Assembly (NCBI RefSeq): GCF_007860075.1
Contig: NZ_SJPP01000001.1
Coordinates: 1,839,980-1,903,979 of the forward strand
Source of the DNA: Symmachiella macrocystis
GTDB taxonomy: Bacteria; Planctomycetota; Planctomycetia; Planctomycetales; Planctomycetaceae
DNA length: 64,000 bases
Direction: 5' to 3'
Of the stretch, positions 2,313-36,649 are shown in pieces. Both the position numbers and the translations under genes were made by a program. The number at the start of each line of letters is the position of its first letter. The stretch's first letter is position 1. The notes beneath the pieces are model-generated. The model was not told the origin of the DNA. It saw nothing but the letters and a program-made list of their open reading frames with translations, and did not search any database.

Positions 2313-3899
2313 TTATTTCTCGGCTCGTGCGGTGAGTTTCTCTTGTTCGGCCCGCATGTATTCGCCGTACTGTTCGTCCAACGTTTTGTAGTCCGTGCCG
2401 ATGAGTTGCGGTAGTGTGGCGGGTCGTTCCCGGACCCGGAGGTTGGTGCTATACAGCTGTGAAAGATGTTCAATCAGCGCGTCACGATACTTGCCATCCT
2501 TGTAGTGCATGAAGAAATGCGTCAACCCCGAGGCTTGGCTGTAAAGCTTGCGAATCTCGATGGAATGCTGGATTTCATTCGCTCCCTGAGACGCGAATCT
2601 TCCCAAGGGAATGTAATAGTCATCCTCAAGATAGCGATACCGAGCAGCGCGGAAGCGTTGGTACATCGGATCGCCCAACTCGTAGCGATCGCCCTTTTTG
2701 GCGAAGGACTCCATGTAACAGGCAATCCCCTCGATAATCCAAAAGTGGGCATGCTCGCCGACCATTAAAGACTTGCGGCGTGTCTTGCGGGTTTCGGCAA
2801 AGAGTTGATGCGTCGCTTCGTGAAAAATTGTACGCGTGGCGGGGCCTTCGGGATCATCATCCATTTCGGGTTGATGGTAGAAATAGGCAATGCCGGTCCC
2901 GGATAAATACAATCCGGTCGTGATGCTGATCTCCGGAACCTGGGGCCGCAGGGCCTCGACATAATCCTCTTTGTTACTGAAATAATGGATTTCAAACTGG
3001 TTTCTCGTGGAGCGCCGCCGCCCCTTGGCCAAGCTCGACCGCTGATCCTGCGTGGTGAGAAAACCGGAAAAGGTCTGGAAAAAGACGCGATAGAACTGCT
3101 CAAGCTGACGACTCAACTCAACGCCCCGCTCCAGGCTGTGGTTGGTCTTCACCAGGTAATGTTCAGACTCCACCTCCCAGGCGTTCTTGAAACTGCGGCG
3201 CAATTCCGCTTCCTGGGCGGCGCTCACCCAGCGTCCGACGCTGCCGCGCCCGGACCGGAAATACCGCTCACCGTTTTCGTAACGCTTGACGTGATCGCGA
3301 GGTAACCAACCAAATTTTTCGGTGTCGACATAATGTTTCTGCCGCATACGAGCCAAAAAAGGTGTGGTCCATTCGTCGCCGCTACGTTCATAACCCAAAA
3401 AACTGCGGACCGATTTATTATCGGGGTCCTGCCGCACCGCCTCCTGGATCAACTGATAGGCCAAACGTACTTCACCTATTTCTAGCACGCGCTGGGCGAG
3501 TAGATACAACTGGATCGCCTGCTCCTGCTGGAGATGTCGCAATTCGACGCGCCAGCGCCGTTCGGCCGGTGAGAGATTATTGGCAATGTCCGGCTGAATC
3601 TTATCCGGTAGTTCGAGTGTACGAAGATCGTCCACCGGCAGCGGAACACCCAATTCGCGGATTGCCGCTGCTTGCTTGGGAAAGCCGTTTTGGTCACATT
3701 GGGCGGCGACATCAGATAACGACTTCGCGAACTTCTCCTGCAGCGCCTCATATTTTTTCAGCTGGACTTGCCGACGACGCTCAGCCTGATCGGGCCGCTC
3801 CGCAACGGCGGTACTCTCGATGAGGACCGCTTCAACAGCGACAGCCAAAAGGCATATCATCGCTCCATGCGAGCAGCGGCGTATGGATTCGATCAGCAT
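2313..3899 (-). CDS. secreted DUF1570 protein with HExxH motif
   Basis: 528 residues starting with a signal-peptide-like stretch (hydrophobic about residues 13-28). Residues 40-170 are charged and helical, with a TPR-like stretch near 145-165. The C-terminal half resembles DUF1570, a planctomycete-rich family. It contains a zinc-metallopeptidase-like HEATH motif at His360-His364 and a downstream GIACYMESF segment whose glutamate is placed like the third ligand of a gluzincin. I infer a cell-envelope metalloprotease-like role, but the substrate is unknown and activity is not shown. The stop lies 25 bases before truB, giving a likely two-gene transcript. Confidence 0.8.
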   Translation of the reverse strand: MLIESIRRCSHGAMICLLAVAVEAVLIESTAVAERPDQAERRRQVQLKKYEALQEKFAKSLSDVAAQCDQNGFPKQAAAIRELGVPLPVDDLRTLELPDKIQPDIANNLSPAERRWRVELRHLQQEQAIQLYLLAQRVLEIGEVRLAYQLIQEAVRQDPDNKSVRSFLGYERSGDEWTTPFLARMRQKHYVDTEKFGWLPRDHVKRYENGERYFRSGRGSVGRWVSAAQEAELRRSFKNAWEVESEHYLVKTNHSLERGVELSRQLEQFYRVFFQTFSGFLTTQDQRSSLAKGRRRSTRNQFEIHYFSNKEDYVEALRPQVPEISITTGLYLSGTGIAYFYHQPEMDDDPEGPATRTIFHEATHQLFAETRKTRRKSLMVGEHAHFWIIEGIACYMESFAKKGDRYELGDPMYQRFRAARYRYLEDDYYIPLGRFASQGANEIQHSIEIRKLYSQASGLTHFFMHYKDGKYRDALIEHLSQLYSTNLRVRERPATLPQLIGTDYKTLDEQYGEYMRAEQEKLTARAEK

Positions 3900-34515: not shown

Positions 34516-34995
34516 CTATGACTCATTGGCGTGCAATTGCTCGTGCTCTTCGTCGTCTTCCGGACGCGTGTCGCGGCCGCGGCCGGCGGTTAGTTCGATA
34601 CGGTCGACGAATTTGACATTCGCGCAATCGTCTAGCTCAGCCGTGTGACAGGCGGCGGGATCGCGAATCAGAAAACGAACCGGCCCTCCCTTCTCCACCG
34701 GCAATGGCGCGCCGGCATTTTTGTAGACAACGATCCCCTCCGCAGCGACGGCAGCCAAGGGAATGCTGGCGGCAAAGTCGTCGTGCGTGGCGTGTAGCGT
34801 GAGATAGGTCGCCGAGCCGGTTGGCTGGACGCGGTCCAAAATCGATTGCAATGTCACACCATCCCCCTGCCGCGTGGGGTGAAACCGACTCACATCAACA
34901 ACCTGCGCAGCTTCCGGAAAGGCTTCGAAATCGGCAAATGAGAACTCCAACGGTTGCGAGACTTCACCGTCGATTTTTAACAATGCACCGGACAT
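34516..34995 (-). CDS. small sulfite-oxidase-fold (molybdopterin-binding-like) protein
   Basis: 159 residues resembling the oxidoreductase molybdopterin-binding domain: DGEVSQPLEFSFADFEAF at the start, GDGVTLQSIL in the middle, and GGPVRFLIRDPAACHTAELDDC near the end. The cysteine that binds molybdenum in sulfite oxidase and YedY would fall in the segment VVDVSRFHPTRQ, which has none. The protein is also about half the usual length. It is probably a cofactor-free relative. A charged His/Glu-rich tail follows. No haem or partner subunit nearby. Confidence 0.7.
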   Translation of the reverse strand: MSGALLKIDGEVSQPLEFSFADFEAFPEAAQVVDVSRFHPTRQGDGVTLQSILDRVQPTGSATYLTLHATHDDFAASIPLAAVAAEGIVVYKNAGAPLPVEKGGPVRFLIRDPAACHTAELDDCANVKFVDRIELTAGRGRDTRPEDDEEHEQLHANES

Positions 34996-35305: not shown

Positions 35306-35770
35306 TTAACTGCGCTGTTCGTACTCCGTCAGATACCCCAGGAAGTCGCGGCGATGTTCTTCTTCGTCGGCCAATGAGGTGATGCACAGATCCTGTGTGA
35401 CGTAATCTTCGCCGTCGCAGAGCTGGATCAATTTGTTGTACTGCTTGATGGCGCCATCTTCAGCGGCAATTACGCCTTTGATGACCGACATCACATCGGT
35501 GTGGTCGGATGTAGGTTGCAGAGTATCCTGCGAAGCGACAAATGCTTGGCTGCCGGGTACCTCGCCACCGATCGTTTTGATTCGCCGAGCCAACACTTGT
35601 GCGTGCCCTAATTCTTCTTGCACATCGGCGGCCAACGCCTTTTTGATTTCTTCCGCTCGTACGCCGTCGAGGTTGATCGAGTTTGCGATGTAGTTCATCA
35701 CCGTCTCGATTTCCATCCAATAGGCGACTTTCAATTCTTCGATAATTTTTTTCCGTACGTCATCACTCAT
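35306..35770 (-). CDS. ferritin-like/bacterioferritin-family protein
   Basis: 154 residues from an ATG at 35770, chosen over longer in-frame options because AGAGGA lies 7 bases upstream and the product starts at the first helix. Ferritin-like di-iron four-helix pattern: Glu in MEIETVMNY, EELGHAQ, AEDGAIKQYN and ADEEEHRRDF. The EExxH and ExxxH ligands are present, so it should bind two metal ions. The length is that of bacterioferritin-like proteins, but no haem-binding Met is obvious. Transcribed away from the nickel SOD gene across a shared 414-base region. Confidence 0.88.
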   Translation of the reverse strand: MSDDVRKKIIEELKVAYWMEIETVMNYIANSINLDGVRAEEIKKALAADVQEELGHAQVLARRIKTIGGEVPGSQAFVASQDTLQPTSDHTDVMSVIKGVIAAEDGAIKQYNKLIQLCDGEDYVTQDLCITSLADEEEHRRDFLGYLTEYEQRS

Positions 35771-36103: not shown

Positions 36104-36184
36104 ACGCCCCCAATGTTTTTGAAAATTAGGGCGTCGATGTACCTACGGCGCTCGTCCACACTTTTAGCGAAAAGGAATGACACC

Positions 36185-36649
36185 ATGTCTCGCTACGTAA
36201 CGCTCACACTCGCTCTTGCCGCCGTCAGTTTAGTCAGTGTCCGCGATGCCGATGCGCATTGCCAAGTTCCCTGCGGTATCTACGGCGATCAGACTCGCTT
36301 TGAACAGATGCTGGAAGACTTTCGCACGATTTCGAAAGCCATGACGCAGATCAATGAACTCTCCGAAAAGAGTGACGCCCAGTCCAAAAACCAACTGGTG
36401 CGTTGGATCAACACCAAGGAAGAACACGCTTCCAAAACACAGAAGGTCATGGCTGAGTACTTTTTTGCGCAGCGGATCAAGTCCGACAACGAGAACTACG
36501 TCAAGCAACTGAAGGCCGCCCACAACATCATCGTGACTGCGATGAAATGCAAACAAACCGTCGACCCGAAAGTCGCTAAGTCGCTGGAAAAGGCGATCTA
36601 CGATTTCTATCGGGCCTATGAAGGCAAAGAGCCGGATTTTGAACACTAA
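36185..36649 (+). CDS. sodN: nickel superoxide dismutase with Sec signal peptide
   Basis: Dismutates superoxide using a nickel ion held by the first residues of the mature protein. 154 residues from ATG 36185, with AAGGA 8 bases upstream. The nickel hook HCQVPCGIYGD is intact: His25, Cys26 and Cys30 become His1, Cys2 and Cys6. The 24 residues before it have a hydrophobic core (LTLALAAVSLV) and end in DADA, a good signal peptidase I site. The following four-helix domain has the usual length of about 120 residues. In Streptomyces the hook is freed by the peptidase SodX; none is nearby. A periplasmic or paryphoplasmic location is inferred. Confidence 0.92.
   Translation: MSRYVTLTLALAAVSLVSVRDADAHCQVPCGIYGDQTRFEQMLEDFRTISKAMTQINELSEKSDAQSKNQLVRWINTKEEHASKTQKVMAEYFFAQRIKSDNENYVKQLKAAHNIIVTAMKCKQTVDPKVAKSLEKAIYDFYRAYEGKEPDFEH

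Follow-up and report, generated by a model that had tools for sequence, protein, structure and literature searches.

A NiSOD gene of Symmachiella macrocystis whose product is probably exported and freed by signal peptidase I in place of SodX

How does a nickel superoxide dismutase (NiSOD) obtain the free N-terminus of its nickel hook when no gene for a dedicated maturation protease is found next to it? SodN has been described as being processed by a cognate peptidase to yield the active enzyme (PMC3919588). The stretch of DNA analysed here, 64,000 nucleotides of the Symmachiella macrocystis genome and referred to as the window, carries a NiSOD gene whose hook lies directly behind a signal-peptide-like leader, and the initial annotation had proposed that a Sec signal peptide takes the place of SodX. 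We consider it likely, with a probability of roughly 0.8, that the gene encodes an exported NiSOD belonging to a SodX-free lineage (type II in the following) and that signal peptidase I would free the protein at His1. The features of the locus are:

36185..36649, plus strand: NiSOD precursor gene, 154 amino acids plus stop (PF09055 at 4e-34, translation)
36172..36176, plus strand: AAGGA, a probable ribosome-binding site 8 bases upstream of the ATG (from the sequence; also present in L034)
36185..36256, plus strand: signal-peptide-like leader of 24 amino acids, MSRYVTLTLALAAVSLVSVRDADA (hydrophobic peak 2.71, Ala at −1 and −3, type II pattern)
36257..36646, plus strand: mature enzyme, 130 amino acids, with a predicted four-helix NiSOD fold (AlphaFold2 pLDDT 93.2, best PDB matches NiSOD)
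36257..36283, plus strand: nickel hook HCQVPCGIY, with His1, Cys2, Cys6 and Tyr9 in mature numbering (HCxxPC conservation)
35306..35770, minus strand: divergent neighbour, a ferritin-like protein of 154 amino acids (PF00210 at 2.6e-20)

The product of the open reading frame is a member of the Sod_Ni family, residues 22-146 matching PF09055 with 118.3 bits against a cut-off of 25. It does not reach the cut-off of the NCBIfam sodN equivalog TIGR02753 (42.7 of 90 bits), which points to a divergent member of the NiSOD family. Translation places the hook at H25-C26-Q-V-P29-C30-G-I-Y33 directly after D21-A-D-A24, exactly where the initial annotation had seen it, and residues 25-33 agree with the motif H-C-x-x-P-C-G-x-Y in the form given in PMC4460010. 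A longer in-frame start at 36113 (178 amino acids) is unlikely because the related locus L034 keeps both the ATG and the AAGGAA sequence and has no further upstream ATG in frame. The gene is the only NiSOD found in its own 7.57 Mb genome, and its standing as a real variant of a known enzyme family is well supported.

As a simple measure of hydrophobicity we used the peak nine-residue Kyte-Doolittle mean. Judged in this way, the window leader shows the pattern of a Sec/signal peptidase I substrate, with an n-, h- and c-region and small residues at −1 and −3. Its peak of 2.71 is attained by 2.9% of 273 internal Met-started 24-mers drawn from 35 ORFs of the window, while 11.4% of them reach 2.1. 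At such chance rates the leader by itself would be only moderate evidence for a signal peptide, and the weight comes from the recurrence of the same layout throughout the lineage. No twin-arginine (Tat) motif was seen, RR being absent from the window leader and occurring within the first 12 residues of 3/45 type II leaders.

The initial annotation had also noted that no sodX follows the gene, and had named a sodX homologue elsewhere in the genome as the finding that would speak against its proposal. The first point was confirmed: within ~1.5 kb on each side (locus L001) the best match has 0.3 bits. In the genome as a whole no sodX above cut-off was found either, the best TIGR02754 match reaching 15.8 bits where 63.25 are required. 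This match falls inside a 678-residue frame with signal peptidase S26 matches, for which reason the weak sodX matches of the genome were discarded; three frames with S26 matches were found in this genome. With the same loose limit, matches to TIGR02754 appeared in 13 of 14 control genomes, none above cut-off, so that matches of this kind mean little. The genome is 96.6% complete, and a sodX may to that extent have been missed.

In the phylum sample of 392 genomes, PF09055 has matches at 59 places, spread over 55 of the genomes. We have called the two groups type I and type II, labels of this analysis that are assigned from the hook residues. Type I comprises 14 loci plus one fragment with the hook HCDGP or HCDIP; type II comprises 44 loci in 44 genomes, the window included, with the hook HC(E/Q)(V/I)P, and is the commoner lineage, being present in 44 of the 55 NiSOD genomes. 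The HCxxPC pattern is kept in all 58 NiSODs of the sample whose N-terminal part is in the sequence, and it was by this pattern that the sequences behind the leader counts (45 and 14) and the mature-domain comparison were picked. The 45 type II leaders consist of 42 from the phylum sample and those of L034, L035 and L036. Two loci, L093 (fused and over the length limit) and L094 (at a contig end), were assigned to type II by eye and are included in the 44 genomes and the 47 loci considered below, outside the 45 leaders. In L093 (45-1466, minus strand) the leader ends with YLFG before HCEIPCG and the NiSOD is fused to a C-terminal region of ~310 residues in which no Pfam family was found. The type I fragment, L095, lies beside a sodX-like match and was left out of the 14 type I loci; it is a second, truncated NiSOD fragment (G072:C317:1-454) followed at the contig end by this match, which has an in-frame TAG.

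Nine strong sodX genes were combined into a SodX profile, which scored at least 39.7 bits on the same strand in 13 of the 14 type I loci; nine of these 13 had supplied the profile, and L011, L013, L014 and L016 are independent. The match begins 33-207 bases downstream of the NiSOD gene, with a second piece in L016 at 356; at the fourteenth locus (L005) 56 bases are left before the contig end. Beside the type II genes no sodX was found at any of the 47 loci (L034-L036 included), the profile giving 6.7 bits at most. Downstream cover amounts to at least 500 bases in 42 and at least 1000 bases in 41 of these 47; L035, L070, L076, L093 and L094 have less than 400 bases and say little on sodX. TIGR02754 exceeds its cut-off in nine of the 392 genomes, all of which have a type I gene, and in the three genomes carrying both types (G100, G169 and G191) sodX adjoins the type I gene only.

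The leaders of the two types differ clearly in their hydrophobic peak, which ranges from −0.41 to 1.89 in type I (n=14) and from 1.16 to 3.41, with a median of 2.78, in type II (n=45; Mann-Whitney p 2.8e-8, sequences treated as independent of kinship). All 14 type I leaders, which are short and weakly hydrophobic, stay at or below 1.89 and 44/45 type II leaders reach at least 2.12. The sole type II exception is L088, for which the start rule chose too short a start and which was kept as scored. The start-codon rule can favour hydrophobic leaders, and the identical rule was applied to both types. Small residues at −1 and −3, on the other hand, occur in both (14/14 type I and 38/45 type II leaders), so the AxA motif is not diagnostic and it is the hydrophobic core that tells the types apart. 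We have accordingly rejected the argument that AxA before the His proves a signal peptide. The motif common to both types would be accounted for by the kinship of SodX with the signal peptidases, and the weak cross-matches mentioned above fit with this kinship. What stands of the initial annotation's argument from the signal peptidase site is that the site adjoins the hook; the AxA sequence, shared by the precursors of the SodX type, is uninformative by itself.

Where a type II leader abuts the hook (38 cases), position −1 is A, S or T and position −3 is A, V, S or L, while −2 and −4 vary freely. The entropy is ~1.0 bit at −1 and −3, 3.4-3.6 at −2 and −4, and 2.6 at −5, where Arg is found in 15/38. 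This pattern resembles signal peptidase I sites much as would be expected. A hydrophobic leader, the hook at the predicted cut and the absence of sodX thus co-occur across a separate lineage, which supports the proposal that a Sec signal peptide replaces SodX in maturation.

Seven of the 45 leaders (L036, L079, L082, L083, L087, L089 and L090) are exceptions, the residue next to the hook being D, F, R, W or L. Of the seven, five belong to family f34 (L079, L082, L087, L089 and L090, the His being preceded by F, R, L, W or R), where extra residues separate the hook from the hydrophobic core; a pro-region is present in L088 as well. These seven proteins and L088 would need another cut or else bind nickel differently. 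The suggestion that signal peptide cleavage alone suffices agrees with the layout of the window protein, but since seven leaders have no signal-peptidase-like site at the hook, signal peptidase is insufficient to explain the whole type II lineage; the claim for the window protein is unaffected. Within the hook itself, position 3 is E or Q and never D in 45/45 type II proteins, and Tyr9 is replaced by Phe in 6/45. At the other end of the protein, tails rich in His, with 5 or more among the last 25 residues, are present in 10/45 type II and 0/14 type I proteins, for example in L085, L074 and L031, and possibly serve in nickel capture.

The separation is also seen in the enzyme proper. In a midpoint-rooted tree of 60 mature domains, in which L016 sits on a very long branch, a single branch with support 99/97 divides type I from type II (alignments A1 and A3 are without L075, which is close to L074). 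The closest relatives of the window protein are L034, which comes from a Planctomycetales MAG and shares 75% identity over the mature part, the Rubripirellula sequence L035, and those of two genomes from the window's own family. Sequences from a Saprospiraceae member (L036, Bacteroidota) and from Ilyobacter (Fusobacteriota) group among type II.

The AlphaFold2 model of the mature protein (pLDDT 93.2, pTM 0.85) has four helices, with a poorly modelled hook (mean pLDDT 60 over residues 1-10). Foldseek against the PDB places NiSOD chains on top with probability 1.00 and 10-16% identity; the best E is 2.5e-2, and no PDB match was obtained at 0.001 or better. VIA gives a Z of 14.1 for the NiSOD structure 1q0d and 11.4 for the next family; according to the tool's own warning, values under ~13 for helical bundles may reflect only a common arrangement. 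Taken as a model, the mature protein is predicted to have the NiSOD fold. A PDB sequence search with the single window protein gave nothing at 0.001, and one with a type II profile returned NiSOD no better than at E 0.008, interspersed with Affimer chains that are unrelated.

The neighbourhood offers little guidance as to function. A ferritin-like gene, 79% identical to that of the window, adjoins the L034 NiSOD gene (L034:5659-6126, plus strand) in a relative orientation that differs from the window, and a tblastn search at 1e-4 over the NiSOD loci, whose flanks are short, found such a gene only in the window genome and in L034. We have therefore dropped the neighbourhood as a functional cue. 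Also near the NiSOD gene, at 34516-34995 on the minus strand of the window, lies a gene for a small protein with a molybdopterin-binding oxidoreductase domain (PF00174, 4e-15). As for other superoxide dismutases, the genome holds one Fe/Mn-SOD, and no CuZn-SOD was found in it. In the sample, CuZn-SOD occurs in 3/44 type II genomes against 75/348 others (Fisher p 0.025, genomes treated as independent of kinship) and in 5/14 type I genomes against 73/378 (p 0.17). The rarity in type II genomes fits an extracytoplasmic SOD role and is only suggestive; the argument is weak because two of the three type II genomes that do hold CuZn-SOD, G024 and G194, belong to the window's own family.

We have assembled these data into a model for the maturation of the window protein. 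The signal peptide of 24 residues would target the precursor to the Sec translocon, and signal peptidase I would cut after Ala24, producing the free His1 amine that the hook requires for nickel. The apo-protein is predicted to fold into a four-helix bundle, would take up nickel outside the cytoplasm and would there remove superoxide, in a cell with one Fe/Mn-SOD and no CuZn-SOD found. A single cut by the housekeeping export machinery would in this way replace a dedicated maturation protease. The model is supported by the finding that sodX presence, leader type and lineage go together in the phylum sample. It has been reported that acetylation of the N-terminus inactivates model peptides, so the free amine matters; the His1 side chain is dispensable for activity in such peptides and yet matters in the native enzyme (PMC5722923). 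The same peptides form disulfides in air (PMC5722923), and as a counterpoint to the model the hook thiols would run a risk of oxidation outside the cytoplasm. We are evenly divided on the broader proposition that type II is an exported lineage with the general signal peptidase as its only maturase, providing an extracytoplasmic SOD where CuZn-SOD is missing, with a moved cut in f34 that needs a further step.

Other explanations have to be weighed against this. The protein might be an exported metal binder that has the NiSOD fold but a main function other than superoxide dismutation, for example as a nickel or copper scavenger or chaperone. The low identity to solved NiSODs (10-16%), a hook position 3 that is never Asp, the change of Tyr9 to Phe in 6/45 and the His-rich tails of 10/45 type II as against 0/14 type I proteins would all agree with such a role, and other secreted proteins with an N-terminal His bind metals (PMC12537917). 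One of these, tested as a nickel binder, had only weak peroxidase activity (PMC12537917). The nickel-binding residues His1, Cys2 and Cys6 are, however, kept in 58/58 NiSODs of the sample with an N-terminal part, and the window protein retains Tyr9, which leads us to regard a scavenger or chaperone as unlikely. We give still less credit to the idea that the leader is exported, with signal peptidase acting at another site or leaving the leader uncut and a second protease exposing His1. It is suggested by the extra residues between core and hook in f34 (L079, L082, L087, L089, L090), L036 and L088, but the leaders of the window and of 37 other type II proteins fit signal peptidase I at −1 and −3, which are by far the most constrained of the positions −1 to −5, with −5 intermediate.

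The least probable reading, to which we attach very little weight, is that of an ordinary cytoplasmic NiSOD whose propeptide is removed by a SodX-like protease that we missed. Leaders of the SodX type do end in AxA-like sites (14/14), the completeness of the genome is 96.6%, and ten cyanobacterial strains have sodN without a detected sodX (PMC8346466). Against it, the leaders of the two types differ in hydrophobicity with L088 as the one exception, the best sodX match of the genome (15.8 bits) lies in a signal peptidase frame, and the surroundings of the 47 type II loci, which in 42 cases extend 500 bases or more downstream, showed no sodX. Export with cleavage by signal peptidase I at His1 accordingly remains the reading that we prefer.

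If most NiSODs of the phylum sample are indeed exported and matured by signal peptidase, the absence of sodX would no longer imply an inactive NiSOD. In cyanobacteria, NiSOD has been described as an enzyme of the cytoplasm that a protease of its own activates, and strains lacking sodX were suspected of having no working NiSOD (PMC8346466). NiSOD could then also serve as an extracytoplasmic defence, nickel loading would have to work outside the cytoplasm with exposed thiols, and a type II enzyme should become active in a laboratory host without a helper gene. Among the matches listed in our literature search, none dealt with an exported NiSOD lineage that lacks SodX or with the lineage split; the main early NiSOD literature lay outside this search, and priority can therefore not be claimed.

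With the Streptomyces enzyme (SodN with SodX; PDB 1q0d, 1t6u) the window protein has in common the hook HCxxPCGxY and the four-helix fold, predicted here, the superposition of the model on 1q0d giving an rmsd of 2.1 over 113 residues that are 12% identical (VIA Z as above, 14.1). It differs in its hydrophobic leader, in that no sodX was found, and in having Q instead of D at hook position 3. The SodX-linked type I NiSODs of the same phylum likewise share PF09055 and small residues before His1 with the window protein, but they lie on the other side of the tree, have a short and weakly hydrophobic leader and are followed by a sodX match 33-207 bases downstream. On a plasmid of Novosphingobium sp. 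RL4, for which the collection has no genes annotated in this stretch (L103), a NiSOD-like frame at 2611-3453 on the plus strand (HCDIPCKIYDPGPALI) is followed on the same strand, at 3450-3818, by a short frame that resembles SodX on visual inspection.

Two bacterial proteins resemble the window protein in their leader. The SOD [Ni] of Ilyobacter polytropus (WP_013389192.1) has, as in type II, a signal-like leader directly before HCEVPC, and by gene name no sodX was present among the six other genes listed within ~5 kb; it differs in that it belongs to the Fusobacteriota and is encoded on plasmid pILYOP01. The other comes from Roseiconus lacunae, which we take to be a planctomycete. The signal peptide of its SOD_Ni protein WP_230780104.1 ends at the His, like that of the window protein, and a NiSOD of this kind whose signal peptide runs right up to the hook is thus already in print (Cairo et al. 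2025, PMC12537917). Going by the printed signal peptide only, this protein is probably of type II. Cairo et al. used the signal peptide as a search bait, which returned many Ni-SODs, and the word SodX is absent from the main text of their article (PMC12537917). A parallel SodX-free route is provided by the ubiquitin-NiSOD fusions known from algae, diatoms among them (PMC4460010, PMC6332867), for which it was proposed that a housekeeping protease frees the hook of the diatom enzyme (PMC4460010). These fusions are eukaryotic and involve ubiquitin-specific proteases, and the partner of the NiSOD is ubiquitin where that of the window protein would be an export signal.
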